Shown piece by piece: positions 41,601-62,369 of a stretch of 64,000 nucleotides of DNA. The DNA comes from Sandaracinus amylolyticus (GTDB taxonomy: Bacteria; Myxococcota_A; Polyangia; Polyangiales; Sandaracinaceae): assembly GCF_000737325.1 (NCBI RefSeq), contig NZ_CP011125.1:5580001-5644000 (forward strand), written 5' to 3'. The notes below the pieces were generated by a model that saw nothing but the letters and a program-made list of their open reading frames with translations, ran no database searches and was not told where the DNA came from. A program made the translations under genes and the position numbers. The stretch's first letter is position 1. The number at the start of each line of letters is the position of its first letter.

Positions 41601-43004
41601 GAGCTCCTCGTCGTCCGCCCAGCCGTCTCCGTCGACCCAGCGCTGTCGCTCGCTGCACTCGCCCCACGCGAGCCCGTCGCGCGCGCACTCGGCGAGCACG
41701 CGCGCAGCCGCGCGATCGAGCGCCCACATGCGACCGAGCGCGAGCGCGCGCAGCGACTCGTCGCCCGTCGAGTCCGCCGCGATCGACGCGGTGGCGTCGT
41801 AGTCGCCGACGCCGAGCTCGACCAACGTGCGCTGGGCGCGCGCCGCGCGCGCGAGGAGCGGCGGCGACGCGATCTCCGATCCTGCCCACTCCGCGATGCG
41901 GCGCTCGATCCACGGCGAGCGCGACACGCCCGCGTCGCGCTCCCACGCCTCGAGGCGCTCCGCGCTCGCCGTCACCACCGTCGCGAGCGCGGCGATCTCG
42001 TCGGCGAGCCGTCGCGCATCGTCGTCCCGCGCGAGCGTCCGCGCCTCGAGCGCGCGATCGTACGCGTCGCCCGCGAGGCCCTGCTCGAGGCAGCGCGCGG
42101 CGAGCGCGAGCTGGTGCGCGGCCGAGCTCGGCCTCGCGAGCGCGGCCTGCAGCAAGCGCGCGATCGCCACGCCGCGATGCCCCGGCGCCGCCGTGCCGAC
42201 CACGTCGATGGCCGCCTCGCGATCGCCCTCGCGCGCGACGAGCAGCGCCGCGGATGCCAGCGGATGCGCGCGATCGATCGACACCAGCGCGCGCGCGATC
42301 GCGAGCACCGCCTCGCCGTCCTCGCGCTCTCCCGCTTCATGCCAGCGTCGCTCGAGGACGACGAGCGCTCGCGCGCCCTCCCCCGCGATGCGATCGAGCG
42401 ACGGCCGCGTCGCGCCGCGCGGGACCGCACCGAGCCGCTCCACGTCGACGCGCGCGCTCTCGTCGAGCCCGTTCCACAGCGCGATCGGCACCGGGCGCAC
42501 GAGAGCCCCGCCCGCATCGGCGCGCAGCCGCAGCAGCCGCGCGACGACGTCGCGCGCGTCACCCGGCGCGTCTCGACCCACCACCGCGAGCGCGAGCCCG
42601 ACGTCACCGAGACGCTCGGCGCGCGCGAGCGCTTCGGCGCGCACCACGCTCCACACCCGACGCGCCTCCTCACGCGACGCCTCGGGCGCGAGCACCGTGC
42701 GCGCGCGCGCCACCGTGACCGCGCGCGTGGTCGCCTCGACCGCCGACGTCGCGTTCCCGGCGCGCTCCTCGAGCGCCGCGATCGCCCGCAGGCGCTCCAC
42801 CTCGCGCGCGGGATCGCCCGCGGGATCTCCCTCGACGTGACCGAGCGCGACGCGCGCCCGACGATCCGCCTCCGACCATCCGTGCGCGTCGAGCGGCGGC
42901 CTCCACGTCGCCGCCGCGCCGCAGCCGGACAGCAGCACGATGCACGAGAGCCACCAACCCGCGGCGCACGACACGCCTGGGCGCGACGACGAACCGATCG
43001 ACAC
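35640..43004 (-). CDS. Giant TPR-rich lipoprotein with C-terminal transglutaminase-like domain
   Basis: The product is 2,454 aa. GTG 43004 is chosen because GGAGG lies 6 nt upstream; ATG codons at 43061 and 43037 lack this. The signal peptide ends at lipobox VLLSGC. Residues about 40-1400 are Ala/Arg/Leu-rich helices in TPR-like pairs. A central region (about 1450-2250) of mixed alpha/beta resembles DUF3352-like protein. The last 130 residues are a transglutaminase-like/papain-fold domain with a full triad: Cys2367 (GDCSEL), His2401 (AHAWVAF) and Asp2416 (VDPTNG). It is probably a secreted, membrane-tethered protein-modifying or scaffold protein. The function is not described as far as I know. 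Confidence 0.85.
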   Translation of the reverse strand: MSIGSSSRPGVSCAAGWWLSCIVLLSGCGAAATWRPPLDAHGWSEADRRARVALGHVEGDPAGDPAREVERLRAIAALEERAGNATSAVEATTRAVTVARARTVLAPEASREEARRVWSVVRAEALARAERLGDVGLALAVVGRDAPGDARDVVARLLRLRADAGGALVRPVPIALWNGLDESARVDVERLGAVPRGATRPSLDRIAGEGARALVVLERRWHEAGEREDGEAVLAIARALVSIDRAHPLASAALLVAREGDREAAIDVVGTAAPGHRGVAIARLLQAALARPSSAAHQLALAARCLEQGLAGDAYDRALEARTLARDDDARRLADEIAALATVVTASAERLEAWERDAGVSRSPWIERRIAEWAGSEIASPPLLARAARAQRTLVELGVGDYDATASIAADSTGDESLRALALGRMWALDRAAARVLAECARDGLAWGECSERQRWVDGDGWADDEELARRPRDLDEVLLPLPELFDHDEAGELVQAWLAELESSRHALHPAVVEARVRVLARGGDVAGARSVLEDAGRVLAWSRRAVLALWLDDLAAGREVGSDVLERALLLGSPAERIERIAIDDEREEVALGASNVSRLAIAETHFDEPGREAQVLDALAPLIERGDTSALYAAALSAIVLERAGRAEDLARIVERVRAALPGSALGRLLEALAGEARDAYAGALVTWPESRDLVRRWLAAWRAGEPTVPLDAARAALESVDPSAIDLAFDGPLADVDQLRAVLEPPLAGELDVAALRARGPALTRTFAVSYRLRALIRGAIVDAPDAASAIASARELLPFATSAADGPGAWRRTRVRLHVLLGETERALEIADRPVDPEIDTETEAPLLADDRLRLLASARRALDDTTTWRLIVADARDETAPDVFDALAARAGTSSAVRALFCHELTTTSELAPRVIDECGPAFRADPGQPIVAQALSWAVLEATEHARARGLAPAAFFDTATRALGDRASSVLLHNNSVWLSRSGEHERAAAVELAAQARGWVVDETSRDDLAQLRWRGPSVRASYVASGEASWSELAFQALGDARLAAASIYADAATAFARARPQDEGAVRAFAAGDVIAWAHADLDAGRLTPDGLMAFDATRIDDFDDRTDALVGAYPESILVAYAAMVRALRRGDHEAALRWGGIVEREGVRGTYVVTITPALIAMRGRAELDALRARGRQAFPDDPRLSGDAEAEAALPPMLASAEAFDAALADVDVDRMVARLRGLERRVSVQHAVEVTLPSWLAPLGGAGGALEGGARIVVVSEPRQSDCTPQTCLDALVPAIERTGFRHVWSAPLTLPIGAGARALMTNGTHVMVLGVVPRGARLVVSIAAGPTTTISQLLPTFALAEASMRPLDGLVGAAWAEALRAVSGAAPPGVRARALRAALAPGEGCTITAELDEVRRIDAALAPALLRDLLLATPEPSARRRLLACVPEGAGDHGALGVAAVLDPDPAIHARGRALMSADRAGALAAACAVVRAPVTVAASGLASRADTALPPLGAVEVLAALPTEERRTLTTELVGGTDRRLALLALVAEQVLPGGIAPDALARIVTTGDPGLAIEAVHAHWNAPSAAELEAIRTRLDAMRAPLDDEQRALLRTAAWVLSRGLDPRDRERFTRIAALAREGLSAEDAPYGEAAARNVEWHAESHAAALERAPIESLDERFAARAEWLRAQRARSRVSPEAARLLATQPLARFLPGTHWRYVRVPQPSLLIATLTSAYERLDSAGSTDAAVARAAFAWMAERAGAELLGPEGGLDLDRPIECAMADRWPRSWVCSVHVRDADRARAILARRRMGTNSAPWLAVDAANLARTLPMVAGATPFALDRMLRVDPDAADSSEGGGGRRDGGALLFAERARVEVSLDGVRFDRFATFVRREHEGSGVDTEHYLFTGDRMIVFGLEEMARAVVTGPLPIARTLAGDPTFRRLTEDWADGAALQMASVGWRGESDGEMPLVERADASFEIAVEGTGLVLRMRAPFAGTPGDVGALVAMLPADATARFAIAGAEDDAPRRRAREVDAPIEPRPPLRDAGEAARLASDAAERLAFAWMPRAGGELWDRWVIVAEGASLDRALAARGITPPAEGALLEHAGVRFARRGARWVLGPLEADVRAALARPLPAHGGEVQVGSGHLDGLGAARALIGLVGALPEGDPRRTQLQMFAALLGAGRELSFDGHVDTRRRQLVVVAHVEPTLRAEGSEHIIDEVLRNPRNAVRLPRVIEPIELRAPLRLVLESDEPEAVAARVFVRGARSRTRVIDPRHLEVVITPMPSEGSDVAIDDAARARLTRGYGSDAPRVRALAAQIVPAGARPEEAARAVVAWVHENIRYELTAEELDAASVLARGRGDCSELSRLSVALLRAAGVPAELREGFAIDGQEAVAHAWVAFHDGRGFREVDPTNGNVHVSSGYVPASVWSAVGLLSVGGLRVVEVGPVP

Positions 43005-48860: not shown

Positions 48861-50705
48861 ATGTCCTTCACTTGGTGGTCGCGGGCTGACGCCTCGCGCG
48901 TGCTCCTGGTGCTGGCTTCGGTCGCGACGATCTCCGGGTGCCCAGGGCCCGACCGCGACGACCCCGACGCGTCGATGCGCGACGCGATGCAGGATCCGCC
49001 CGACGATGCCGCGGTCGACGCGACCACGCCGGTCGACGCGAATGCGCCGCTCGACGCGCCGTTCGACGGTGGTTGCGAGGGCGGTCCGTGCGGGCTGCGC
49101 GAGCTCGGCGCCGCGTGCGACGCGCACGCCCAGTGCCTCTCGGCGTTCTGCGAGAACGACGTCTGCGCGACCGCGCCCGGCATGCCGCCCGTGCTGCTCT
49201 CGGAGACCGATCTCACCACCGGCCACGACGCGGGGATCGTGCTGCTCGCGGATCGGCTCCGGTTCGAGCAGCGTGGCGGCATGTACGGCGGCGTTCGTTC
49301 GGACGCCGCGATCGCACCGCGCTCGGGCGTCTTCTACTTCGAAGCGAAGCGCCTGATCGCGCGCACCGGCGCGTGGGGCTTCGGCATCGCGTCCGCGAGC
49401 GCGCCGCTCGACGCGATCCCGGGCGCGAACGGCCTGAGCGCAGGCATCGCGACCGCAGGGCAGATCCAGGCCGAGGGCCGCGGGACCTGCACCGGTCCGG
49501 TGTGGTTCCCGAGCGAAAACGAGGTCTACGGCTTCGTCGTCGACTACCGAGCAGCGAATCCGATCCTGCACGTCGTGCTCGACGTCTTCGGCACGCTCGA
49601 GGTGCGTCGCAGCTGTGCGCTCGCGGTGGTCGACGAGCCCGTGCACGCGATCTACGGCGGCTGGCGGCACGACGTGCCGGCGATGGGCGCGTTCAACTTC
49701 GGCAACGACACGACGAACCATCCGTTCTTCTACACGCGCGCGCAGATCGAGGCCGCGCTCACGGCCGCGAGCTTCGACGACGTCGCGAGCGCGCTCGTCA
49801 TGGGCTTCGGTCGCGAGCGCTGGCTCCCGCGCTCCGAGGCGCCCGAGCTCGACGTCGACGCTGCTGCCACGGTCGCGCTGGGCGCCGCGATCACGCTGAG
49901 CGCGAGCGCCACCGATCTCGAGGACGGTGATCTCTCGACGACCATCCACTGGCACGATCGCGCCGCGACGCACCACCCCGCGACCGAGCACGACGGCGCG
50001 ACCTGGACGTACACCCCGGTCGAGCTCGGACGCCACGCGATCGACCTCAGCGTCACCGACTCCGCGGGACTGACCACGACTCGCACGCTGACGCTCACCG
50101 TGACTGGCACGCTGCCGCAGTCCAATCCGGTGCGGCTCGTGCCCGACGCGATCGCAGGCAGTCAGGTGATGCTGTCGAGCGATGGGCTCTCCGTGTCGTT
50201 CCACGGTCCGGGCAAGTACGGGATCCGCGCGAATCAGCCGATCTACGGGCAATTTTGGTATTTCGAGGTCACGCGCCTGGTCGGCCCGGTGAACATGGGC
50301 TTCGGGCTCGTGACCGCCACGGGCGTGCTCGATCCCTACGACTCCGAGGACGTGCCGTGGTCGATGTCGATCAACACGACGGGCGCGATGTGGCGAGAGC
50401 TCGTGTGGCAGCACGACGTGCCGACGACGAGCACCACGTACGGCTTCGCCGTCGACTACCGCGGTGCGAGCCCGATCGTCTACGTGATCATCGGCGGCGC
50501 GCTCGTCTCGACGCTGGAGATGCACGAGGTCACCGTGCCGCTCCATCCGATGCTCTACGGCAACCCCACCGGGAGCACGCCGCCCGCGTTCGATCAGCGC
50601 GCGAACTTCGGCGCGAGCGCGTTCGTCTACGACCCGGTCGCGATCCTGGCCGCGCAAGGAGTGACCGGCGTCGAGGTCGGCTGGGGCGACGCGAACACGC
50701 CCTGA
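48861..50705 (+). CDS. Lipoprotein with two SPRY-like domains and an Ig-like spacer
   Basis: The product is 614 aa with lipobox TISGC (Cys27). An Asp/Ala-rich linker follows (about 30-70), then Cys-rich CDAHAQCLSAFCENDVC. SPRY-like domain 1 covers about 115-320 (FYFEAKRLIARTGAWGFGIA; EVYGFVVDYRAANPILHVV). An Ig/PKD-like stretch is at about 330-420. SPRY-like domain 2 covers about 435-600, with the same beats (FWYFEVTRLVGPVNMGFGL; TYGFAVDYRGASPIVYVI). Tandem SPRY-like modules on a bacterial lipoprotein are uncommon. A binding or adhesion role is a guess. CACGCT lies 8 nt before the start. Confidence 0.78.
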   Translation: MSFTWWSRADASRVLLVLASVATISGCPGPDRDDPDASMRDAMQDPPDDAAVDATTPVDANAPLDAPFDGGCEGGPCGLRELGAACDAHAQCLSAFCENDVCATAPGMPPVLLSETDLTTGHDAGIVLLADRLRFEQRGGMYGGVRSDAAIAPRSGVFYFEAKRLIARTGAWGFGIASASAPLDAIPGANGLSAGIATAGQIQAEGRGTCTGPVWFPSENEVYGFVVDYRAANPILHVVLDVFGTLEVRRSCALAVVDEPVHAIYGGWRHDVPAMGAFNFGNDTTNHPFFYTRAQIEAALTAASFDDVASALVMGFGRERWLPRSEAPELDVDAAATVALGAAITLSASATDLEDGDLSTTIHWHDRAATHHPATEHDGATWTYTPVELGRHAIDLSVTDSAGLTTTRTLTLTVTGTLPQSNPVRLVPDAIAGSQVMLSSDGLSVSFHGPGKYGIRANQPIYGQFWYFEVTRLVGPVNMGFGLVTATGVLDPYDSEDVPWSMSINTTGAMWRELVWQHDVPTTSTTYGFAVDYRGASPIVYVIIGGALVSTLEMHEVTVPLHPMLYGNPTGSTPPAFDQRANFGASAFVYDPVAILAAQGVTGVEVGWGDANTP

Positions 50706-51124: not shown

Positions 51125-52060
51125 ATGAGCCTCGCTCTCGTCGTCGGCACAGCGAACCCCAGCCTCGGTGGCGCGATCGCGAACGCGCTCGGGGTCGAGC
51201 GGCATCCCTGCATCGCGGAGCGCTTTCCCGACGGCGAGATCCGCGTCGAGCTCGGCGGGACACTCCGCGGATGCGACGTGTTCGTGGTGCAGCCGACGGC
51301 GCCGCCGGTGGGCGACTCGCTGCTCGAGCTCGTGCTGCTCGGAGACGCCGCGCGCCGCGCGGGCGCCGCGCGCACCGTCGCGGTGCTGCCGTACTTCGGC
51401 TATGCGCGCGCGGATCGCCGCACCGGAGAAGGCCAGCCGCTCGCCGCGCGCCTCGTCGGCGATCTGATCGGATGCGCGCGCTTCGATCGCGCGATCACCG
51501 TCGACCTGCACACCCCCGGCGTCGAAGGCCTGCTGCCGATGCCCGTCGATCACCTCAGCGCGATCCCGACCGTCGTCTCGGCGCTCGCGGCCCACGCGCC
51601 CGAGGACGCGGTGATCGTCGCGCCCGATCTCGGCGGCGCGAAGCGCGCCGACGCCTTCGCGCGAAGGCTCCACCGGCCGGTCGCGGTCGTGCACAAGACG
51701 CGCATCAGCGGGCGCCAGGTCGAGGCGCACGGCATCACCGGAGAGGTCGCGGGACGAACGCCGATCCTCGTCGACGACATGATCTCGACGGGCAGCACGA
51801 TCGTCGCGTCGATCGAGGCCCTGCGCGCGCACGGATGCACCGCGCCCGCGATCGTCGCCGCGACGCACGGACTGCTCGTCGGGCCCGCGCGCGAGCGCCT
51901 CACGAGCCTCGCGCCCGCGCACGTCGTGCTCACCGACAGCGTCGCGCACGACGCGAGCGGACTGCCCGAGCACGTCGCGAGCATCGCGCCGCTGCTCGCG
52001 GACGCGATCCGTCGCATCCACGAGCGACGCTCGCTCGCAGACCTGCTGCACGCGTCGTGA
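51125..52060 (+). CDS. Ribose-phosphate pyrophosphokinase paralogue
   Basis: The product is 311 aa, the normal PRPP synthetase length. Features: FPDGEIRVEL, PYFGYARADRRTGEGQP (usually PYFGYARQDR), DLHT, and the PRPP-binding loop ILVDDMISTGSTI. The flexible catalytic loop reads HKTR where DKRR is usual, keeping Lys and one Arg. It should make PRPP from ribose-5-phosphate and ATP, but the divergences suggest a paralogue; the housekeeping prs gene may be elsewhere. The TGA stop abuts the convergent gene's stop in TGATCA. Confidence 0.85.
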   Translation: MSLALVVGTANPSLGGAIANALGVERHPCIAERFPDGEIRVELGGTLRGCDVFVVQPTAPPVGDSLLELVLLGDAARRAGAARTVAVLPYFGYARADRRTGEGQPLAARLVGDLIGCARFDRAITVDLHTPGVEGLLPMPVDHLSAIPTVVSALAAHAPEDAVIVAPDLGGAKRADAFARRLHRPVAVVHKTRISGRQVEAHGITGEVAGRTPILVDDMISTGSTIVASIEALRAHGCTAPAIVAATHGLLVGPARERLTSLAPAHVVLTDSVAHDASGLPEHVASIAPLLADAIRRIHERRSLADLLHAS

Positions 52061-52879
52061 TCAGATCGCGAGCGGCGCGATCGCGACGCCGTCGATCGAC
52101 GCGTGCACCGCGCCGGGGAGCACCTCGCGCATCGTGATCGTCTCGAGCAGGCCGCCCTCGAGATCGAGCGCGAACACCGCCGACGCGACCGCGTCCGCCA
52201 CGTAGACGCGGCCTTCCGGCGTGATCGCGATCGATCGAGGCACGCGCATCGCGCCGCCCGCGTCGTAGTCGGCGATCACCTCGCCGCTGCGCGCGAAGAT
52301 GCGCACGCGCGCGTTCCCGCCGTCGACGACGTGGAGGTGATCGAGCGCGTCCACGGCGAGATCCGCGGGCCCGTTGAGCGGGCGCTCGTGCCCGCGTGGT
52401 GCGCCGTACGAGGCGGTCACCGCGCCTGCGAGCGAGAGCCCGATCACGCGGTGGGCGTACCCGTCGGCGACCAAGAGGCCGCGCGCTCCGTCGGCCACCA
52501 GCGCGGCCGGGCGATGCAGCCCGTCGCGCTCGCCTGCCGCGCGCACGACGCGCCGCTCGTGCATCGCCGCATCGAGCTCGACGATGCCGCGCACCGTGTC
52601 GGCGACCACGATCGCGCCGTCGTCCAGCCCGACCGCATCGACGGGATCGACGAAGGTGCCCTCTGCGGAGACCGCGAGCTCACCACCGCGATCGTCGCGA
52701 ACGCGCACGAGGCGTGCGTGGCGATCGACCTCGAGCACGCGCCCGAGCACGTCGACGCGCCCCGCCGGCCCGCTCGCGACGACGCGCGCCGAAGGCTCGC
52801 CCGCGCATCCCAGCGACGAGAGAAGGAGCGGCGCAGCGCCGCTCGACCACACGGCTCGGAAGAACGTCCTGCGGATCAC
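52061..52879 (-). CDS. Tat-type NHL-repeat lipoprotein, last gene of the fibre operon
   Basis: The product is 272 aa from GTG 52879, with GGAGA about 6 nt upstream. The N-terminus MIRRTFFRAVW has twin Arg and lipobox SSLGC (Cys25), so it may use the Tat pathway. NHL-type blades follow: DAIVVADTVRGIVELD-like, GARGLLVADGYAHRVIGLSL, DHLHVVDGGNARVRIFARSG and EGRVYVADAVASAVFALDL. These suggest a six-bladed propeller. It starts 13 bp after the DUF6916-like gene on the same strand. Role is unknown; a surface or periplasmic binding platform is plausible. Confidence 0.78.
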   Translation of the reverse strand: MIRRTFFRAVWSSGAAPLLLSSLGCAGEPSARVVASGPAGRVDVLGRVLEVDRHARLVRVRDDRGGELAVSAEGTFVDPVDAVGLDDGAIVVADTVRGIVELDAAMHERRVVRAAGERDGLHRPAALVADGARGLLVADGYAHRVIGLSLAGAVTASYGAPRGHERPLNGPADLAVDALDHLHVVDGGNARVRIFARSGEVIADYDAGGAMRVPRSIAITPEGRVYVADAVASAVFALDLEGGLLETITMREVLPGAVHASIDGVAIAPLAI

Positions 52880-52892
52880 GGCGTCTCCTGCT

Positions 52893-53195
52893 CTAGTTGA
52901 AGATCACTTCGTATCGCATGCGCGCGCCGGGCCCCGGCCCGATCGGGACGACGAGCAACACCTGCTCGCCCAGCTCGGAGCACGTCAGTCGATGCGTGCC
53001 CTGAGGCGCGTACGACTGGCCCTCTCGCTGCGCGAACACGAGCGAATAACAAGACAGTCCATCACGCGTACCGAGATCGCGCACCGACTCGAGCACGAGA
53101 GAGAGCGTCCAGCGCTCGTCGTCCGACGTCGGTGCGAGCGTGAACTCGCGCCCTTCGAGCGCGCGATATCGCGACACGTCGAGCCGCTCGCTCAT
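52893..53195 (-). CDS. DUF6916-like small protein
   Basis: The product is 100 aa. Its ATG overlaps the GNAT stop by four bases (ATGA). Motifs fit DUF6916: GREFTL near the start, LSLVLESVRDL, CYSLVFAQREGQSYAPQGTHRLTCSELGEQVLLVVPIGPGPGARMRYEVIFN reduced to LxxG-YxL and VPIG...YEVIFN. I recall this family occurring beside MdpB-type tail-collar proteins, but no function is assigned. There is no signal peptide, so it is probably cytoplasmic and may be a chaperone or regulator of the fibre proteins. That role is inference. Confidence 0.72.
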   Translation of the reverse strand: MSERLDVSRYRALEGREFTLAPTSDDERWTLSLVLESVRDLGTRDGLSCYSLVFAQREGQSYAPQGTHRLTCSELGEQVLLVVPIGPGPGARMRYEVIFN

Positions 53196-53707
53196 GCGCG
53201 CCCCGCCGAATGCGCGAGGAAGAGATACACGCCGCGATCCTCCTCGACGCGGAACCCGAGCCGCTCGTAGAGCCGCAGCGCGGGGTTGTTGCGCTCGACG
53301 TGGATCGTCACGCTCGCGCCTTCTTTGCGGGCGCGCGCGATCACGCGCTCGATCAGCGACGCTCCGATGCCGCGGCCGCGGTGCGAGGGGATCAGGGCGA
53401 TGTCGACGATGCGGATCTCCCGCTCTCCGCGCGAGAGATAGAGTCGCCCGATCGGCGCGCCGTCCTCCTCGATGACGTCGAATCGCGCGCCGTCGTAGTG
53501 CTGCTGATAGTGCGCGTGCTGGAGCGCGTACTGCGACGCGAGGAACGCCGTCTTCTGGGCGTCGCTCCACGGCACCGGGCGCAGCTCTTCCTCGCGCGTC
53601 GACGCGTAGAGCCGCTCGAGGAACGGACGGTCCGCGTCCGTCATCGGCCGGAGCGTCACGCGGGACATCGGATCGAGCGCGAGCTCGACGTAGCGCTCGG
53701 CGCTCAT
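53192..53707 (-). CDS. GNAT acetyltransferase of the fibre operon
   Basis: The product is 171 aa. ATG 53707 overlaps the preceding tail-collar stop (ATGA). The GNAT motif order is IRIVDIALIPSHRGRGIGASLI (acetyl-CoA loop RGRGIG) then VTIHVERNNPALRLYERLGF. The RimI-like layout suggests acetylation of a protein amine, perhaps the tail-collar proteins made just upstream. That substrate is a guess from operon position. Coupling to both neighbours is strong (4-bp overlaps on each side). Confidence 0.88.
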   Translation of the reverse strand: MSAERYVELALDPMSRVTLRPMTDADRPFLERLYASTREEELRPVPWSDAQKTAFLASQYALQHAHYQQHYDGARFDVIEEDGAPIGRLYLSRGEREIRIVDIALIPSHRGRGIGASLIERVIARARKEGASVTIHVERNNPALRLYERLGFRVEEDRGVYLFLAHSAGRA

Positions 53708-54234
53708 GGACGCGGCGGGAAGACGCCCTGCAGTGCGATGCAGAACGTGATCGCGAGGTACGGCATCAGGTTGTTGTGCGGCTGCGAGCTACCGCTCACG
53801 CCCAGCGCCAGCGGGCTCATCGCGGTCGTCGGCGACGATGCGCCGGGAGGCGCGTACAGCGCGAGCCCACCCTGCGTCATCGCGGGCTGACCGGCGCCTG
53901 GATGGCCTTCGTAGCTCTCCGCGCGAGAGAACGACACGCCGTGGCCGTGCGCCGGAATCTCCGTCGTCAGGAGCGTCACGGTCGCGCTGCCGCCCACCGC
54001 GCCGAGGGGACGCGGCGTGAGCCCCGGCCCGTGCCCCGCGCCCATGGCCGCGGCGCCCTGCAGGTTCGGCAGTCCGAACGTGCTGCGCCCGTCGCCGCCG
54101 TACGTCGTGCCGAGCAGCGAGAAGAGCGCGGTGTTCTGGGCGATCGCCATGATCTGCCCGTTGCACAGCGCCCATCCGCGCGGCGCGAAATTGAGGCCGA
54201 ACATGCGCACTTCGGCGACGAACGGATCTGCCAT
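53704..54234 (-). CDS. Phage-tail-collar (MdpB-like) protein 3
   Basis: The product is 176 aa. The tail-collar domain (PF07484-like) lies at the N-terminus: FAPRGWALCNGQIMAIAQN, LFSLLGTTYGGDGRSTFGLPNLQG. The rest is Gly/Ala-rich, with EIPAHGHGVSF and SSQPHNNLMPYLAITFCIAL near the end, the microcystin-dependent-protein (MdpB) layout. No signal peptide. It is the third of three tandem paralogues, 13 bp after the second. Confidence 0.9.
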   Translation of the reverse strand: MADPFVAEVRMFGLNFAPRGWALCNGQIMAIAQNTALFSLLGTTYGGDGRSTFGLPNLQGAAAMGAGHGPGLTPRPLGAVGGSATVTLLTTEIPAHGHGVSFSRAESYEGHPGAGQPAMTQGGLALYAPPGASSPTTAMSPLALGVSGSSQPHNNLMPYLAITFCIALQGVFPPRP

Positions 54235-54247
54235 GGTCTCGCTCCGC

Positions 54248-54754
54248 TCAGGGACGTGAGGGGTAGAGGCCGTAGAGCGCGATGATGTAATTCAGCGCGA
54301 CGTACGGCTGCATGTTGTCGTGCGGCTGCGAGCCACCGACGACGCCGACCTGTGGGGACGACGTCACGTGGGGTGCGTCGACACCGTACGCCGTGACCGC
54401 GGCGCTCGGCATCGCGGCGAGGAACGCGTTCGTCGGGCTCGTGGTGCTCGCGTTCGCGTCGCTCGCGTGCAGCGCGTGCGTGTGCGCGGGGATCTGGCTC
54501 GTCGTCAGCGTGACCGTCTCGGCTCCGCCGCCCTCGCCGAGCACGTGCCCGGTGCCGACGTGCACGGGCACGCGCCCGCGGAGATCGGGCAGCGCGAACG
54601 TGCTCACGCCGTCGCCGCCGTGGGTCGTGCCGACCACCACGAAGAGGAGCTCGTTCTCCGCGATCGACACGAGGCTGCCGTCGCAGATCGCCCATCCCAC
54701 GGGCGCGAAGTTGCCGGCGAAGAGCCGGATCTCACCGACGTACGGTTCCGACAT
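54248..54754 (-). CDS. Phage-tail-collar (MdpB-like) protein 2
   Basis: The product is 168 aa. It opens YVGEIRLFAGNFAPVGWAICDGS and keeps TTHGGDGVSTFALPDLRGRVPVHVG, IPAHTHALHA and SQPHDNMQPYVALNYIIALYGLYP. It is more divergent from copies 1 and 3 in the initial motif (CDG rather than CNG). It lies 19 bp after copy 1. It probably forms a trimeric fibre or collar-like assembly with its paralogues. Assembly is inferred. Confidence 0.9.
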   Translation of the reverse strand: MSEPYVGEIRLFAGNFAPVGWAICDGSLVSIAENELLFVVVGTTHGGDGVSTFALPDLRGRVPVHVGTGHVLGEGGGAETVTLTTSQIPAHTHALHASDANASTTSPTNAFLAAMPSAAVTAYGVDAPHVTSSPQVGVVGGSQPHDNMQPYVALNYIIALYGLYPSRP

Positions 54755-54773
54755 CGCATCTCCTCCCGACGAC

Positions 54774-55283
54774 TCAGCTGCGGCTCGGATAGATGCCCTG
54801 CAGCGCGATGCAGAACGTCAGCACGCGATAGGGCTGTCGATTCTCGTGCGGCTGCGAGCTGCCCGTGGTCGTGATGGCGCCCAGCGCCATCGGCACGAGC
54901 GCGCTCGTCGACGTCGAGTACGCGGGCTGTCCGCGGCTCGTCGCGAGGGTCGCGCCGGCGCTCGGCACGATCTCCGTCGCGACCTCGCTGCGCGCGACGA
55001 GCGCGTGCGTGTGCGCGGGGATCTCGTGGTTCGTCAGCGTGTGCGCCGCTTCGCCGCCGCGCTGCCCCTGCACGAACCCGGGCCCGACGTGCACCGGGAC
55101 GCGCCCGCGCAGATCGGGCAGCGCGAACGTGGTGCGCCCGTCACCGCCGTACATCGTGCCGAGCAGCGAAAAGAGCGCCTGGTTCTGGTTGATCGCGAGG
55201 ATCTGCCCGTTGCACTGCGCCCATCCGCGAGGTGCGTAGTCGAACGCCATGATCCGAATCTCGGACAGGAACGGCTCGGCCAT
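54774..55283 (-). CDS. Phage-tail-collar (MdpB-like) protein 1
   Basis: The product is 169 aa with the full collar motif FDYAPRGWAQCNGQILAIN, MYGGDGRTTFALPDLRGRVPVHVGPG, IPAHTHALV and a SSQPHENRQPYRVLTFCIALQGIYP end. It lies 21 bp after the giant surface protein and starts the three-paralogue run. Full-length phage tail proteins carry this domain at one end, but here it stands alone, which suggests a non-phage function. Confidence 0.9.
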   Translation of the reverse strand: MAEPFLSEIRIMAFDYAPRGWAQCNGQILAINQNQALFSLLGTMYGGDGRTTFALPDLRGRVPVHVGPGFVQGQRGGEAAHTLTNHEIPAHTHALVARSEVATEIVPSAGATLATSRGQPAYSTSTSALVPMALGAITTTGSSQPHENRQPYRVLTFCIALQGIYPSRS

Positions 55284-55304
55284 CGATCTCCCTCTCGTCG
55301 GTGC

Positions 55305-58300
55305 TCAGGGGGCCACGCAGGACGTGAAATTCGACGTCGCGCCGGAGAGCGCGACGGTGCCGCCGAGCGGATTCTGCGACTGGACGTACGACACCACGCT
55401 GCTCGGCGTCGTGGAGCCGAGCCCCACGATCCCGAAGCGGTCGCCCGCCTCGAGGCGCAGCGAGAAGCCGGTGCCGCCGCGGTTCCCCGACATCTGCGCG
55501 CACACCGTGCTGAGCCCGCTCGCGGCGGTGCCCGATTGCACACGCACGCCCGCGACACCGCTGCTCGGCATCGTGAGCGTGTTGTCGCGCAGCACGAGCG
55601 CGAGCGTGCCGTCGACCTCGACCGAGCGCAGCCACACCGCGTAGCCGCTCGTGCCCGAGATCGAGTTGTTCTCGATCACGACGCGCGCATACGGCATCTC
55701 GATCGCCGGATCGAGATCGTCGCCGAGCGCGATCGTGAGCCCGTTCGCGCCGAGGTCGGTGCCGACCGTCGTCATCGTGTTGGCGCGCACGACGACGTCG
55801 TCGGCGCGCGCGGTGCCGAGGAGCTCGACGCGCACCGCGGTGAACGTGACGTTCGAGACCGTGTTGCCCTCGAACGTGAGGCTCGAGATGGTCCCGGCCG
55901 CGTTCACGATCGCGAGCGCGCTCGTGCTCGCGTTGCGCAGCTCGCAGCCTCGCACGACGACCGCGCCGCTCAGCATCGTCGGGCTCGCGACGGTCGCGTC
56001 GTCGAAGTCGAGCGCGGTCGCGGTGCCGGTCACGCGCATGCCCTCGAGCGTGATCCCGTCGACGACCACGCCGCGCACGCCGCTGGCGGTGGGAGCGTTC
56101 GCGATCGCGAGCGACCGGAGCGTCACGTTGCGCGCGTTGGTGAGGAGCACGCCGTCGGACGTGGTGCTCTGGATCGTGCCGCCCGATCCGTTGTTCGCGC
56201 CGGTCCCGTCGCCGACGATCGAGAACGAGCCCGTGTTGTTGGTGACGACGATGCCGTTCGGTCCGCCGGTCGCGCTCACCGCGCGCAGCGCGATCGTGCC
56301 GCCGACGTTCGTGAGGTGCACCGCCTCCGCGCCGCTCGCGGTCACCGACACGAGCGCGACGTCGACGCCACTGGCGCCGCTCGCGACGAGACCGCGCGAC
56401 GACGACGAGACCACGACGTCGATGCCGCGCACGTACACGCTCGTCCCGAGCGTCAGCGTGCCCATCCGCGGCGCGACCGCCGACACCGCCGGGAACGCGC
56501 GCGCGTAGGTCGCGGGCGCGAACCCGAGGTGCGCCGTCGTGACGGCGATACCCTGGCCCAGCAGGCGGACGCCTGCGCCGAGCGTGTACGCCGAGTACGC
56601 CGCACCGCTGCCCGCGACGTGCACGACGTCGCCGCTCGACGTCGCGGGGAGCTCGCCGAAGTTGCGCACCGGCCGCACGCGCGTCCCGCTGCCGCCCGCC
56701 GCCGCGCTCGCGTCGACGAACCACACGCGGTTCTGGATGCCGAGCGAGACCGTCGCGACCACCGACGCCGCGGCGTTGGTGATCGTGTACGCGAACGCGT
56801 CGTTCGCGATCGCGCCCGCGGGCGGCTCGTACACGAACGTTCCGTCGGACTGCAGCACGACACGGCCGCCGAGCATCGTCGTGAGCGGCGCGCCGACCGC
56901 GGTGGTCGAGGCCGCGACCGAGCTCGGGCCGTAGCCCGTGATCGTCGCGCCGTTCAGCGTGTCGTTCGCGAGCACGCTGCCCGCGAGCGGCACGTCGATC
57001 GGCACGTTGCCGGTCACCCCGTACGCGTCGTTCGTCACCGTCGGCGGCGAGACCGGCGCGACGACCGTCATCGAGAACGTGATCGTCGCGGCGGTGCCGA
57101 CGCCGTTCTGCGCGCGCACCACGACGTTCGCGTAGGTGCCCGCCGTGGTCGGCGTGCCCGAGATGCGGCGCGTCGCCGAGTCGAGCGCGAGCCCGGGCGG
57201 GAGCGTGCCGGAGATGACGGCGAGCGTCGGCGCGGGGTGGCCCGAGACCGTGAACGTGTGCGAGTACGCGGTGCCGACGGTGAGCGATCCCGGCGGCGTG
57301 CCGGCGATCGACGCCGCTTCGTTCACGGTGAGCGTGAAGCTCTGCGCCGCGACGTTGCCGAGACCGTCGCTCGCGGTGAACGTCAGCGGGTACGTGCCGC
57401 CGGTGCCCGCCGCCGGCGTGCCGCTCAGCGTGCGCGTCGCCGCGTCGTAGACGACTCCCGTCGGCAGCGTGCCGGCGAGCGCGACCGTGGGCGCGGGGAA
57501 GCCCGTCGCGGTGGCGGTGAACGTGCCGGCGGTGCCGACCGTGAAGGTCGTCGCGCTCGCCGACGTGATCGCCGGCGGCTGTCGCACCGTGACCGTGACC
57601 GAGAGCGTCGCGTCCGCGCCGACGCCGTTCGTCGCGGTGACCGTGACCGGATACGTGCCTCCGGTGCCCGCCGCGGGCGTGCCCTGGATCCGGCGCGCCG
57701 CCGCGTCCAGCGCGAGGCCGCTCGGAAGCGAGCCAGTCAGCGCGAGCGTGGGAATCGGATATCCCGCGCCCGTGAACGCATACGTGCCATTCGTGCCGAC
57801 GGTGAACGTCGCAGTCGCCGCGCCGCTCAGCGCGGGTGCTTCGCGGATCGTCAGCGTGAACGACTGCGTGGCGACGGTGCCGACTCCGTTGCTCGCGGTG
57901 AACGTGAGCGCGTAGGTCCCGCCGGTGCCGGGCGCGGGCGTGCCGCCGAGCGTGCGCGTCGCGGGATCGAACACGACGCCGGTGGGCAGCGCGCCCGCGA
58001 TCGAGACCGTCGGCCTCGGCGTGCCGATCACGGCGACCGCGAACGACCCCGGCGTGCCGACGGTGAACGTCGTCGCGTCGGGCGAGCCGATCACGGGCGA
58101 CTCGCGCACGTCGATCGTGACGTCGAGCGCCACGTCGGGACCCACGCCGTTGCTCGCGATGATCGAGACGGGATAGGTGCCGGCCGAGCCCTCGGCGGGC
58201 GTGCCCGAGATCGTCCGGGCGGTCGCGTCGAACACGAGGCCGATCGGGAGCACATTCGAGAGCATCGCAGTCGGCGCGGGATATCCGGACATCGAGAACG

Positions 58301-60071
58301 AATAGGACTGCGCCTGTCCGACTCGGAACGTGGCAGTCGCCGCACCGGTGATCACGGGCGCCTGCTCGACCGTCAGCGAGAACGTCTGCGTCGCCTCGGG
58401 CGCGACGCCGTTCCGGGCACGGACCGTGAACGAGTACGCGCCGCCCGAGGTCGCGCTCGGCGCGCCGACGAGCGACGACGTCGCGGTGTCGAACGTCACG
58501 CCGCTCGGCAGCGTCCCCTCCACCGTGATCGACGGCGTCGGGTGCCCGGTCGCGACGAACGCGAACGGAAGGCCCGAGGAGTCGCCCGCGCGCAGCGTGA
58601 GCGACGACCCGCTCGTGATCGCGGGCGCGCGCTCGACGGTCACGCGCACCGTGCCGCGATCCTCGCCCTCGGCGTTCGCGATGACGTAGTCGAACGTCAC
58701 CTCCCCGCCCGAGCTCGCGCCGGCGACGAACGTGAGGCTCCCGTCCGCGCGCACCGTGATCGCGTCACTGCCGACGGTGACCGTCGCGCCCGCGGCATGA
58801 TCGGTGTCGCTGCCGCCGAGCGATCCGCCGCCGAACGAGACCAGCTCCGGCGCGGGCGCGCCGACGTCGTCGGCGAGCAGCGACGTGGGGTCGCTCGCCG
58901 GGATCTCGAGCGTCTCGCCCGCGCGCACGGTGAACGCGTCGTCGGTCGCGAGCGGCGCGTCGCGCACGTCGATGCGCACGACGCCGATCGACGTGCCCGT
59001 CGCGTTCGCGAGCTGGTACTCGAGCTCGAACGGCCCGACGAACGCAGGCGCGGGTGCGAAGGTGAGCGTTCCGTCGGCCTCGACCGTGACGCTGCTGCCC
59101 GCGACCGTCGCGGTGCTGCCCGCGGCGTGATCGGTCACGTCGCCGCCGAGCGAGCGCGCGCCGAACGACGTGATCACCGCGAGCGGCGCACCGAGCGCGT
59201 CGTTCGCGAGGAGCGTCGGGTGCGTGGTGCCGTCGGCGACGAGCGTCGCGCCGCGCGCGACGGCGTACGCGAGATCGTCGACGGCGGTGGGACGCGCGCT
59301 CACGTCGATCGTGACCGTCGCGGTCACCATGCCCGCGACGTTCGCGAGCCGGTACGTGAACGTGTCGTCGCCCTGGAAGCCAGTCGCAGGCGTGAAGACG
59401 AGCCCACCGTCGGGCGCGAGCGCGACCGTGCCGCCTTGCGTCGAGGTGGTGTCGAACGCGTCGATGCGCGCGCCGTTCGGCGCGTCGTTCGCGAGCACAC
59501 CGGGCGCGTCGATCGTGAGCGCGGTGTCGGGCAGCGTGCCGTAGCGATCGTCGGTCGCGACCGGCACGTCGACGAGCGTGAGCGTGACCGTCGCGGCGGT
59601 GGTGCCCAGCGTGTACGTGAAGTCGTCGTCGATCGGCGGCGTGTCGGTGATCGACGGCGGCGTGTAGACGAAGCTGCCGTCCGCGGAGAGCGCGACGACG
59701 CCGCCGAGGCGCGAGGTGGCGTCGAACGCGGTGATCGTCGCGCCCGCGATCGTGTCGTTCGCGAGCACCCCGGGCGCGTCGACCGTGTGGGCCGCGCCGA
59801 TCGCGATCTCGAACGCGTCGTCGACCGCGAGCGTCGTGTCGACCTGCGCGTCGAGGTCGCCGGCGTCGTCGTCCGGGATCGCGCCGTCGTCGGGGACGCT
59901 GGCCGCGTCGTGTCGCGACGCGTCCGCGCCGCTCGCGTCCGCAGCGCTCGCGTCGACGACGCCGGCGTCGTCGATCGAGCCGTCGTCACCGCCGCACCCC
60001 GCGGCGAACGGAGGCAGCGCGGCGAGCGCAGCGAGGACCAGGATTGGCGTGGAACGCGACGTCGACCGCAT
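55305..60071 (-). CDS. Giant lipoprotein: cadherin-like, Ig and beta-helix domains
   Basis: The product is 1,588 aa with lipobox PFAAGC (Cys26), then an Asp/Ala-rich linker to about 80. Four cadherin-like units follow (80-480), recognised by beats such as VDAPGVLANDTI and TATVTIDV. Six He_PIG-type Ig repeats of about 87 aa follow (484-1010), each with a beat like PTGVVFDPATRTLGGTP. A fifth cadherin-like unit is at about 1010-1110. The C-terminus (about 1115-1588) is a right-handed beta-helix with parallel-beta repeats such as NVTLRSLAIANAPTASGVRG. It is first in the tail-collar operon and is probably a lipid-anchored surface fibre or adhesin. Binding target unknown. Confidence 0.88.
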   Translation of the reverse strand: MRSTSRSTPILVLAALAALPPFAAGCGGDDGSIDDAGVVDASAADASGADASRHDAASVPDDGAIPDDDAGDLDAQVDTTLAVDDAFEIAIGAAHTVDAPGVLANDTIAGATITAFDATSRLGGVVALSADGSFVYTPPSITDTPPIDDDFTYTLGTTAATVTLTLVDVPVATDDRYGTLPDTALTIDAPGVLANDAPNGARIDAFDTTSTQGGTVALAPDGGLVFTPATGFQGDDTFTYRLANVAGMVTATVTIDVSARPTAVDDLAYAVARGATLVADGTTHPTLLANDALGAPLAVITSFGARSLGGDVTDHAAGSTATVAGSSVTVEADGTLTFAPAPAFVGPFELEYQLANATGTSIGVVRIDVRDAPLATDDAFTVRAGETLEIPASDPTSLLADDVGAPAPELVSFGGGSLGGSDTDHAAGATVTVGSDAITVRADGSLTFVAGASSGGEVTFDYVIANAEGEDRGTVRVTVERAPAITSGSSLTLRAGDSSGLPFAFVATGHPTPSITVEGTLPSGVTFDTATSSLVGAPSATSGGAYSFTVRARNGVAPEATQTFSLTVEQAPVITGAATATFRVGQAQSYSFSMSGYPAPTAMLSNVLPIGLVFDATARTISGTPAEGSAGTYPVSIIASNGVGPDVALDVTIDVRESPVIGSPDATTFTVGTPGSFAVAVIGTPRPTVSIAGALPTGVVFDPATRTLGGTPAPGTGGTYALTFTASNGVGTVATQSFTLTIREAPALSGAATATFTVGTNGTYAFTGAGYPIPTLALTGSLPSGLALDAAARRIQGTPAAGTGGTYPVTVTATNGVGADATLSVTVTVRQPPAITSASATTFTVGTAGTFTATATGFPAPTVALAGTLPTGVVYDAATRTLSGTPAAGTGGTYPLTFTASDGLGNVAAQSFTLTVNEAASIAGTPPGSLTVGTAYSHTFTVSGHPAPTLAVISGTLPPGLALDSATRRISGTPTTAGTYANVVVRAQNGVGTAATITFSMTVVAPVSPPTVTNDAYGVTGNVPIDVPLAGSVLANDTLNGATITGYGPSSVAASTTAVGAPLTTMLGGRVVLQSDGTFVYEPPAGAIANDAFAYTITNAAASVVATVSLGIQNRVWFVDASAAAGGSGTRVRPVRNFGELPATSSGDVVHVAGSGAAYSAYTLGAGVRLLGQGIAVTTAHLGFAPATYARAFPAVSAVAPRMGTLTLGTSVYVRGIDVVVSSSSRGLVASGASGVDVALVSVTASGAEAVHLTNVGGTIALRAVSATGGPNGIVVTNNTGSFSIVGDGTGANNGSGGTIQSTTSDGVLLTNARNVTLRSLAIANAPTASGVRGVVVDGITLEGMRVTGTATALDFDDATVASPTMLSGAVVVRGCELRNASTSALAIVNAAGTISSLTFEGNTVSNVTFTAVRVELLGTARADDVVVRANTMTTVGTDLGANGLTIALGDDLDPAIEMPYARVVIENNSISGTSGYAVWLRSVEVDGTLALVLRDNTLTMPSSGVAGVRVQSGTAASGLSTVCAQMSGNRGGTGFSLRLEAGDRFGIVGLGSTTPSSVVSYVQSQNPLGGTVALSGATSNFTSCVAP

Positions 60072-60249: not shown

Positions 60250-61095
60250 ATGCGTGCGCTCGTGTTGATCGTCGCCCTGCTCGTCGCGCCGAGCGTCGTC
60301 CGTGCCCAGGACGACGACGAAGCGCTGCCGATCGATCCTCCGGCGGACGCCCAGCCACCCGCGGACACCTCGCGCGACGAGGAGGCACGCGCGCTCTTCG
60401 CGGCCGGTCGCACGGCGTTCGAGGCGGGACGCTTCTCGGACGCGCTGTCGTACTTCCAGCGCTCGTACGAGCTGAGCGGGCGCTCGATGTTGCTCTTCAA
60501 CATCGGGAGCGCGCACGACCGCATGCGCCAGGACGTGGAGGCGCTCGCCGCGTTCGAGGCCTACCTGCGCGCGGTGCCGAACGCGCCGAACGCCCGCGAG
60601 GTCGAGGCGCGTGTCGAGGTCCTGCGCCGCGCGATCGCGCAGCGCGAGCCAGCGCCGGAGACGACGGTCGAAGCGCCCGCGCCCGAGCCGGAGATCGCGA
60701 TCGCGCCCGAGGTCGACCCCGCTCCGGTCGCGCCGCAGCCCGCACCGGAGCGCGCGTTCGCGCCGATCGGCTCGTCGATCCTCGGAGGGCTCGCGCTGAT
60801 CACCGGGGGCGTGGCCGTGTGGTCGTGGGTCGACGCGAACGCGCGCTACGAAGGTCTCGAGACCGGGTGCTTCGCGATGCGCGGCGCATGCACCGACGCC
60901 GAGATCGACGCGAGCGGCGTGGACACGCAGGTCACGGTGACGAACGTGCTCCTCGCGTCGTCGCTCGCGCTCGCGGCGGCGGCGGTCGTGGTGCTCGTGC
61001 TCGAGATCCCGATGGGTGGCGACGACGACGAGGGCGCGCCTGCCGTCGCGCTGCGCGCAGGCCCGACGTCGGTCGCGGTGGAGGGGCGATTCTGA
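60250..61095 (+). CDS. TPR-containing membrane-attached protein
   Basis: The product is 281 aa. The Sec signal ends near VRAQ. A TPR pair lies at about 50-120 (EARALFAAGRTAFEAGRFSDALSYFQRSYELS, LLFNIGSAHDRMRQDVEALAAFEAYLRAVPNAP). A Pro/Glu/Ala-rich linker (about 140-175) and two hydrophobic helices (ILGGLALITGGVAVWSW; VLLASSLALAAAAVVVLVLEI) follow. Such proteins are frequent in myxobacteria and may scaffold envelope complexes. Its stop overlaps the next start (TGATG), so the pair is co-translated. Confidence 0.82.
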   Translation: MRALVLIVALLVAPSVVRAQDDDEALPIDPPADAQPPADTSRDEEARALFAAGRTAFEAGRFSDALSYFQRSYELSGRSMLLFNIGSAHDRMRQDVEALAAFEAYLRAVPNAPNAREVEARVEVLRRAIAQREPAPETTVEAPAPEPEIAIAPEVDPAPVAPQPAPERAFAPIGSSILGGLALITGGVAVWSWVDANARYEGLETGCFAMRGACTDAEIDASGVDTQVTVTNVLLASSLALAAAAVVVLVLEIPMGGDDDEGAPAVALRAGPTSVAVEGRF

Positions 61096-62369
61096 TGCGC
61101 AAGCTGCTCTGGCTGGGCTGCGTCCTCGCGCTGGTCGCGACGGGCTGCTCGCTCGATCTCGATCGGCTGCGCGGCACCCCCGACGCGGGCGACGAGATGG
61201 ACTCCGGGATCGCCGATGCGTCGATGCCGATCGACGCGCCGATGCAGCGCGAGGACGCGGGCCTCGATGCCTCGACCGACGCGTCGACCGACGATGCCGG
61301 AAGCGACGGCGGCGTGCGCTGCACGGCGACGTGCGCGGCGAGCGCGACGTTCGGCGCGCCGCGCGACGTGAGCCTCGCGAGCGCGCCCGTCGACGTGGAG
61401 CTCGGGGACATCACGGGCGACGGCTTCCTCGACGTCGTGGTGCTCACGATGGACGGCTCCGTCCTCGTGCTCTCCGCCGAGCCGGATGGCGCGGGGTGCG
61501 GGTCGCGCGCGCTCAGGGCGACGGACACCGTCGCGTCGACGTCGGGCGCCGCCGACCTCGCGCTCGGCGACGCCGACGACGACGGCCGCCTCGACGCCGC
61601 GGTGGTCGGGACCGGCGGCGCCCTCGCGCTGCACACGACGGACGCGGCCGGCAAGCTCGGCGCGGCGCAGACGCTCGACTTCGAAGGGAACGCGTTCGGC
61701 GTGACGTTCTCGGGCCGGCGCATCCACGTCGCGGGCGGCGGCACGTCGGGCGCCGTTCGCGCGTTCGAGCTCGCGGGCGGCGCGCTCGTCGAGCTCGAGA
61801 GCGCGAGCGCGCCGCCCCTCGTCGAGATCGCGTCGATGACGCTCGCGGACGGAACGCCCGGGCTCGCCTCGAGCAGCCTGATCGGCGCCGCAGTGCTGGT
61901 CGATCGCGTCCAGGAAGCGGGCGCGCCCACGCGCGTCGCGACGGTCCCGGTGAGCGCGGGCAGCCACATCGCGTCCGGGGATCTCGACGGCGACGGCGAC
62001 GACGACCTCGCGATGAACGCGATCGGGACGAGCCGCGTGACGATGATCCTCGCCGACGGAGACACGTTCACGCTCGCGCCGCGCGCCGATGCGTCGGGCG
62101 TCGTCGATGCGCTCGCGATCGGCGCGCTCGACGACGACGAGCAGGTCGACGTCGCGGTGATCGTCGGCACCGCGGTGTACCCCTACGTGCTCGGCGATCC
62201 GCGCGTGCCGGGCGGGGCGCTGATCGGACGGCCGGGCGTCGCGCTGGACGGCGAAGGACGCGACGTCGTGATCGGTGATCTCGACGGAGACGCGCTTCCG
62301 GACCTCGTCGTGATCGGCGAAGCGAGCGGCGGACACGAAGTGCGCGTCGTGCCCGGCGCGTGCCCGTGA
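61095..62369 (+). CDS. FG-GAP/VCBS-repeat lipoprotein
   Basis: The product is 424 aa with lipobox VATGC (Cys18). An Asp/Ala-rich linker (about 25-75) precedes repeating Asp-rich Ca-binding loops: LGDITGDGFLDVVVL, LGDADDDGRLDAAVV, SGDLDGDGDDDLAMN, GALDDDEQVDVAVIV and IGDLDGDALPDLVVIG. These are integrin-like propeller (FG-GAP) motifs. It is probably a surface propeller stabilised by Ca. It is coupled to the TPR gene by TGATG. Its ligand is unknown. Confidence 0.88.
   Translation: MRKLLWLGCVLALVATGCSLDLDRLRGTPDAGDEMDSGIADASMPIDAPMQREDAGLDASTDASTDDAGSDGGVRCTATCAASATFGAPRDVSLASAPVDVELGDITGDGFLDVVVLTMDGSVLVLSAEPDGAGCGSRALRATDTVASTSGAADLALGDADDDGRLDAAVVGTGGALALHTTDAAGKLGAAQTLDFEGNAFGVTFSGRRIHVAGGGTSGAVRAFELAGGALVELESASAPPLVEIASMTLADGTPGLASSSLIGAAVLVDRVQEAGAPTRVATVPVSAGSHIASGDLDGDGDDDLAMNAIGTSRVTMILADGDTFTLAPRADASGVVDALAIGALDDDEQVDVAVIVGTAVYPYVLGDPRVPGGALIGRPGVALDGEGRDVVIGDLDGDALPDLVVIGEASGGHEVRVVPGACP

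Follow-up and report, generated by a model that had tools for sequence, protein, structure and literature searches.

The window analysed here, 64,000 nucleotides of the Sandaracinus amylolyticus genome (NZ_CP011125.1, positions 5,580,001 to 5,644,000), contains an operon of seven open reading frames, all on the minus strand, which brings together a giant lipoprotein, three tail-collar proteins of the PF07484 family, a GNAT acetyltransferase, a DUF6916 protein and an NHL beta-propeller protein. Recomputed gene calls placed the frames exactly where the first-pass annotation of this DNA had put them, with intergenic spacings, in order, of 21, 19 and 13 bp, two 4-bp overlaps and 13 bp, and its domain labels were all confirmed by Pfam. 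The giant protein (55305-60071; 1588 amino acids; He_PIG, Big_9 and Beta_helix matches, with a leader read from the sequence) is followed by the three leaderless collars in tandem: collar 1 (54774-55283; 169 amino acids; PF07484 E 4.5e-29), collar 2 (54248-54754; 168 amino acids; E 4.9e-26) and collar 3 (53704-54234; 176 amino acids; E 6.3e-27), which the collar tree described below assigns to an alpha, a beta and a gamma class respectively. Next to this array lie the overlapping genes for a GNAT acetyltransferase of a collar-linked type (53192-53707; 171 amino acids; PF00583 E 1.9e-17) and for DUF6916 (52893-53195; 100 amino acids, without leader; PF21880 E 1.4e-16), and the NHL protein comes last (52061-52879; 272 amino acids; PF01436 E 1.2e-12). 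The collars scored 91-101 bits against a PF07484 cut-off of 24, and DUF6916 scored 60.8 bits against a PF21880 cut-off of 27. The genome is a single 10.3-Mb contig, in which PF07484 matched only these three collars and DUF6916 only this copy. The operon is bordered by a divergent gene (60250-61095, plus strand) and a convergent gene (51125-52060, plus strand), and its G+C content of 72.4% equals that of the window.

This operon is one copy of a real, widespread and co-inherited gene set. When genome contigs were scanned with an alignment of collars (the gene caller and profiles were custom scripts), the best matches listed gave at least 80 loci, in Chloroflexota, Pseudomonadota, Bacteroidota, Actinomycetota, Acidobacteriota, Bacillota, Verrucomicrobiota, Planctomycetota, Hydrogenedentota and Myxococcota; with Deinococcota, which was added from plasmids, the module occurs in at least 11 phyla, and both chromosomes and megaplasmids carry it. 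Three collars with a GNAT gene were found in plasmid records of Aminobacter, Comamonas, Ruegeria (including Ruegeria sp. TM1040), Azospirillum and Pontibrevibacter, and three collars, in some cases with GNAT, on Deinococcus and Paenibacillus plasmids; the plasmid loci of Hymenobacter and Aliiroseovarius have a single collar. In the pooled set of 91 three-collar arrays, GNAT lay near 65, DUF6916 near 62 and both near 54; as many contigs end close by, these three numbers are minimum values. Within the phylum of the window, DUF6916 was present in 11 of 282 Myxococcota genomes, all 11 of which also had collars (51 of 282 overall), and local gene calling showed three tandem collars, GNAT and DUF6916 together in most of them. 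When Pseudomonadota were drawn by DUF6916 alone, 36 of 299 genomes (about 12%) carried it and 34 of the 37 loci had one collar or more in the 5-17 kb of sequence retrieved; the module is therefore a widespread piece of bacterial biology. The first-pass annotation had mentioned GNAT and DUF6916 as neighbours of stand-alone collars; the searches across phyla bear out that the three travel together, and homologues scattered without their partners, the outcome it had named as damaging to its case, were not found in them. The module is patchy (a genome of the same family, G149, is without both collars and DUF6916), and collar flanks of different phyla can differ at merely about 5% of nonsynonymous sites, a comparison for which high G+C restricts what the synonymous rate (dS) can tell; patchiness and near-identity together suggest that the module spreads horizontally.

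Several loci depart from the common layout. At L061 (G147:C73) GNAT and DUF6916 occur together without nearby collars, and the collar of this genome is on another contig. A Pirellulaceae locus (L153) has one GNAT flanked on both sides by a complete collar triple, an apparent array duplication, and the genome of Sulfidibacter corallicola (L161, G287) has 17 PF07484 matches, apparently five triples and two weak ones. On plasmids of Azospirillum oryzae (L095) and Deinococcus sp. QL22 (L099) the triples adjoin lasso-B2 and PqqD genes and, in Azospirillum, also asparagine-synthetase and 2OG-oxygenase genes, which may be a peptide-modification cluster. One-collar versions in Pseudomonadota (L239, L240, L243, L244, L245 and L248) have GNAT and DUF6916 and often a giant protein.

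The three collars belong to three ancient paralogue classes. A tree of the 264 collars of 88 triples separated three groups, of which gamma and alpha are clades and 'beta' is the remainder; the support of single forks was modest, and the test was therefore made on the composition of the triples. One collar of each class was present in 77 of the 88 (shuffles gave a mean of 19 and a maximum of 33); 56 triples, that of the window among them, run alpha-beta-gamma, and 18, most of them from Bacillota, run beta-alpha-gamma. Class profiles applied to the Pseudomonadota drawn by DUF6916 assigned the members of about 15 of 18 triples to one class each, and the 20 module-carrying genomes in which PF07484 matches were counted had three in 16 cases, six in two, nine in one and 17 in one. 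The three linked collar proteins of the first-pass annotation thus stand as a set and are sharpened to three classes, which makes a heteromer of three different subunits likelier than three copies of one. The tips of phage gp12 fibres are homotrimers, and on this analogy, together with the composition of the triples, the collars most likely form a heterotrimer with one subunit of each class. If so, one-collar loci would be the homotrimer version.

In the tip itself, the H-x-H motif of the gp12-type metal site was found in 252 of 264 collars (by class, 74/80, 99/103 and 79/81), from which metal binding is predicted only. In every class the constrained collar part and the C-terminus enclose some 45 fast-diverging residues: pairs that share 82-84% of the collar part are only 27-29% identical in this middle segment. 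In most comparisons its ratio of nonsynonymous to synonymous substitution rates (dN/dS) was about 0.5-1, against roughly 0.05-0.45 in the flanks, and as this is not clearly above 1 we do not claim positive selection on the segment.

The collars are strongly, though not obligatorily, linked to surface-anchored giant proteins. A gene for at least 800 amino acids directly adjoined 61 of the 91 arrays, as against four of 246 distant genes of the same loci (p about 5e-39). The idea of the first-pass annotation, three collars acting with a giant lipoprotein in a domesticated surface system, therefore holds as far as a conserved, non-prophage gene set with a strongly linked, surface-type giant is concerned; that the giant is an obligatory part is not supported. 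The window giant is a single copy with no full-length paralogue in the genome and consists of a leader ending in PPFAAGC, a D/A-rich spacer, Big_9/cadherin-like and He_PIG immunoglobulin (Ig)-like repeats, and a C-terminal right-handed beta-helix domain (residues 1115-1588; 55308-56729). Collar-linked giants have the Ig/cadherin repeats in common and differ in their anchors. Among the 23 scanned, SLH domains were found in five, the tail of the type IX secretion system (T9SS) in three and autotransporter barrels in two; the window giant has a lipobox, and one Microbacteriaceae protein has an LPxTG-like end. What these lineage-specific anchors have in common is placement at the surface, in every type of envelope.

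The beta-helix domain is itself tied to the collars. After a first profile that had drifted onto repeats was set aside, a profile of about 490 columns was trained on collar-adjacent giants; it also matched untrained giants, all of them at most four genes from collars, among them T9SS and Chloroflexota giants in which the domain is internal. In this data set the domain was found only one to four genes from collars, and it spans many phyla. A strict sequence signature of it matched the window protein alone. In the AlphaFold2 model of the window copy (all models here are of single chains) the domain is a right-handed beta-helix that ends in a small helix and strands, and the prediction is confident from about residue 110 of the part that was modelled. 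Foldseek gave no significant solved match for this domain; the nearest were polysaccharide-active enzymes, tailspikes and PfbA, an adhesin of Streptococcus pneumoniae, which is likewise a right-handed beta-helix surface protein but matches at the level of the fold only (E about 0.01, 11% identity) and has no known collar partners.

DUF6916 occurs as a leaderless form of about 97 amino acids and, in many loci, as an additional longer copy with a leader of the twin-arginine translocation (Tat) type. The window protein was modelled with confidence as all-beta and split-barrel-like (AlphaFold2, mean predicted local distance difference test score 93). No relative of DUF6916 came up in a sequence search of the PDB, and no significant solved match in Foldseek (E 0.29); the top structural match was the N-domain of YcgR (Z 8.6, root-mean-square deviation 2.5 over 87 residues), and the top seven VIA rows were YcgR, MrkH, MotI and VCA0042 with Z 7.6-8.6, so that the likeness to N-domains of the YcgR type may be a shared arrangement only. 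The second residue is Ser or Ala in 184 of 264 collars, and it is a speculation hinted at by this residue that GNAT could act on the collar N-terminus.

The export of the collars poses a problem that the first-pass annotation had missed: they are leaderless while the giant is exported. A Tat lipoprotein-like leader (VIRRTFFRAVWSSGAAPLLLSSLGC) opens the NHL protein, relatives of which stand beside collars in other Myxococcota. Tat-type leaders are over-represented in the operon partners: 27 of 116 have one, compared with 22 of 378 distant genes (p 4e-7), and the window NHL protein is among the 27. The Tat system exports folded proteins, and a tip without a leader, once folded, could thus be carried along by a partner that has a Tat signal. 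As a universal rule of export this was rejected, and it is kept as a partial idea. At one locus (L082, G070) two collars have apparent Sec-type leaders, unlike nearly all others.

We propose, with a probability of about 0.5, that the operon specifies a domesticated system for the cell surface, a tail-fibre tip built of several subunits, with helpers and usually a giant stalk. The proposal builds on features that the sequences themselves show: the gene set is conserved, its collars fall into three classes and lack leaders, the giants have surface anchors, and a beta-helix domain is linked to the collars. The gp12-like alpha, beta and gamma collars would fold in the cytoplasm into a heteromer, probably a trimer with one of each, where GNAT and DUF6916 might help, for example by N-terminal acetylation or as an adaptor or chaperone. 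The folded tip would then be exported, in some loci perhaps alongside a partner that has a Tat signal, for which the NHL protein is the candidate here, and would act outside as an adhesive or receptor-binding tip, usually partnered with the anchored Ig/beta-helix giant as a stalk. In its most specific form, the module would be an undescribed, horizontally spreading surface appendage in which a dedicated acetyltransferase and DUF6916 help to build an obligate, phage-derived alpha-beta-gamma heterotrimer in the cytoplasm, which is exported without a signal of its own and joins a giant anchored in a lineage-specific way (lipid, SLH, T9SS or autotransporter); this fuller version is tentative.

A number of observations weigh against the proposal. 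In Myxococcota a giant is the direct neighbour of only five of 16 arrays, some of the arrays having other large secreted proteins one or two genes away, and the giants of Bacillota are without the beta-helix domain. Seven Myxococcota arrays do not conform to the class rule, all their collars falling in the remainder group, and one- and two-collar variants occur among the Pseudomonadota loci drawn by DUF6916. The pairwise distances of the three collar classes correlate at r 0.77-0.83, which speaks for the proposal, and those of the collars with the beta-helix domain at 0.45-0.50, with GNAT at 0.31-0.36 and with DUF6916 at 0.26-0.27, but shared ancestry contributes to all of these values. The variable middle segment fits a ligand-facing tip and equally a loosely constrained loop, and no acceleration of it was seen within species. 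A hydrophobic leader is absent from 267 of 273 collars, and by a motif test a Tat-type partner is present in only 25 of 90 loci. Contact among the collars, or between collars and giant, is a prediction of the proposal, and so is the modification of the collars by GNAT that the first-pass annotation had put forward.

A degraded prophage or tailocin remnant would account for the matches of the collars to phage tail families (phrog_9116 best) and for the phage relatives of the middle collar at up to 42% identity, and it has a precedent in Caulobacter K31, where three similar collar genes were taken for a phage region (PMC4221894). However, these PHROG families are models of several hundred residues of which the collar is one part only, whereas the window collars are whole proteins of 168-176 amino acids and so are not collars inside a long fibre with a virion attachment region, and plasmid-borne bacterial copies are closer to the middle collar (up to 56% identity over 99% of its length) than any phage match. 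No capsid, terminase, sheath, tube or baseplate genes were recognised among the window's gene calls and the scanned proteins, nor any phage genes among the annotated neighbours of the plasmid copies, in keeping with the first-pass annotation, which had seen no capsid, terminase, baseplate or integrase genes; phage genes just outside the operon, its second damaging outcome, did not turn up in these proteins. GNAT, DUF6916 (which has no PHROG match) and the giant are bacterial partners, and gene set, class composition and flanks are strongly constrained across phyla; we consider a remnant contradicted by these data and reject it. The collars might instead have an intracellular role, such as that of a scaffold or of a decoy or inhibitor for the tails of infecting phages, beside an unrelated giant, and the lack of leaders in nearly all collars, in GNAT and in the main DUF6916 form would suit this. 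We think it improbable in view of the linkage to surface-anchored giants, the exported DUF6916 copies and the detection of a PF07484 protein in an exoproteome (PMC4949626). Anti-phage defence was considered and rejected, as none of the seven proteins matched a PADLOC family.

If the collars do leave the cell, they could be freely released ligand-binding proteins, lectin-like or part of a matrix, in the medium or matrix, with the giant as a separate adhesin under the same expression programme. The Ruegeria pomeroyi exoproteome, in culture, does include one PF07484 protein, known there by its domain (PMC4949626), COG4675 proteins have been reported from soil metaproteomes (PMC5579227), the giant is not always adjacent and the two collars at L082 have Sec-type leaders; set against this are the strong linkage of collars and giants, the collar-specific beta-helix domain and the leaderless state of most collars, and free release seems unlikely to us. 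The three classes could also be alternatives, each forming its own homotrimer with its own ligand, so that the same stalk would bear a repertoire of three tips. That every class has a fast-evolving middle segment of its own and that one-collar loci exist, as homotrimers would allow, speaks for such a repertoire, but one of each class in 77 of 88 compact arrays and collar numbers per genome that are mostly multiples of three fit a fixed stoichiometry better, and we regard the repertoire as rather doubtful.

The surface-tip system that we favour has relatives among known proteins. The tip of T4 gp12 is a trimer with metal-binding histidines (Thomassen 2003, as cited in PMC4949626). The window collars have the collar domain in common with this short tail fibre and other PF07484 tips (PDB 1ocy, 8kec), and with 8kec also the L-P-x-H-x-H motif; in the phage proteins, in contrast, the collar is inside a long fibre joined to the virion, whereas here it stands alone, in threes and with bacterial partners. 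The annotation 'microcystin-dependent protein' MdpB (COG4675) is applied to stand-alone collar proteins such as these, but it is a single-gene label for which the open-access papers found describe no multi-gene system. The chimeric fibre (MAT) proteins of Bdellovibrio are phage-fibre-like trimers used at the bacterial surface and are long, single-chain fibres; as generally described, they differ from the present system in having no three-class stand-alone tips, GNAT or DUF6916. The rhiABC(D) operon of Rhizobium leguminosarum is likewise a bacterial operon with a PF07484 protein, RhiB, that is not part of a phage, and RhiB of rhizobia is reported to have a collar domain and its operon to be able to influence nodulation (PMC13133039, citing Cubo 1992). 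By its description it differs in having one collar, RhiA/C/D and LuxI/LuxR regulation in place of the three collars, GNAT, DUF6916 and giant of the window. In Acaryochloris marina MBIC11017, low far-red light jointly induces three genes annotated as 'phage tail collar', one for an acetyltransferase and two for hypothetical proteins, all with neighbouring locus tags (AM1_3684 to 3690), and several of these genes are also induced in strain MU13 (PMC11633204). Like the PF07484 protein of the Ruegeria pomeroyi exoproteome, this co-induction speaks for the proposal. No paper describing the module, or a system of MdpB or DUF6916, was found in the open-access literature, a search that left bioRxiv and most subscription papers outside.

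Annotation hides this widespread bacterial module under 'tail fiber protein' or takes it for phage debris (PMC4221894). The module would give DUF6916 a context and would turn the orphan annotation of 'microcystin-dependent protein' into a testable system. It would also be a case of a phage homotrimer apparently turned into a three-subunit complex, for which one-collar loci are natural comparisons, and it poses the question of how leaderless tip proteins meet a surface-anchored partner.

Lipoproteins with FG-GAP and Big_9 matches near the operon (61095-62369 and 48900-50705, both plus strand) have a D/A-rich stretch after the cysteine, as in the giant. Further away, a probable lipoprotein of 2454 amino acids (35640-43004, minus strand) has C-terminal transglutaminase cores as its sole Pfam matches and is unusually large for that domain.

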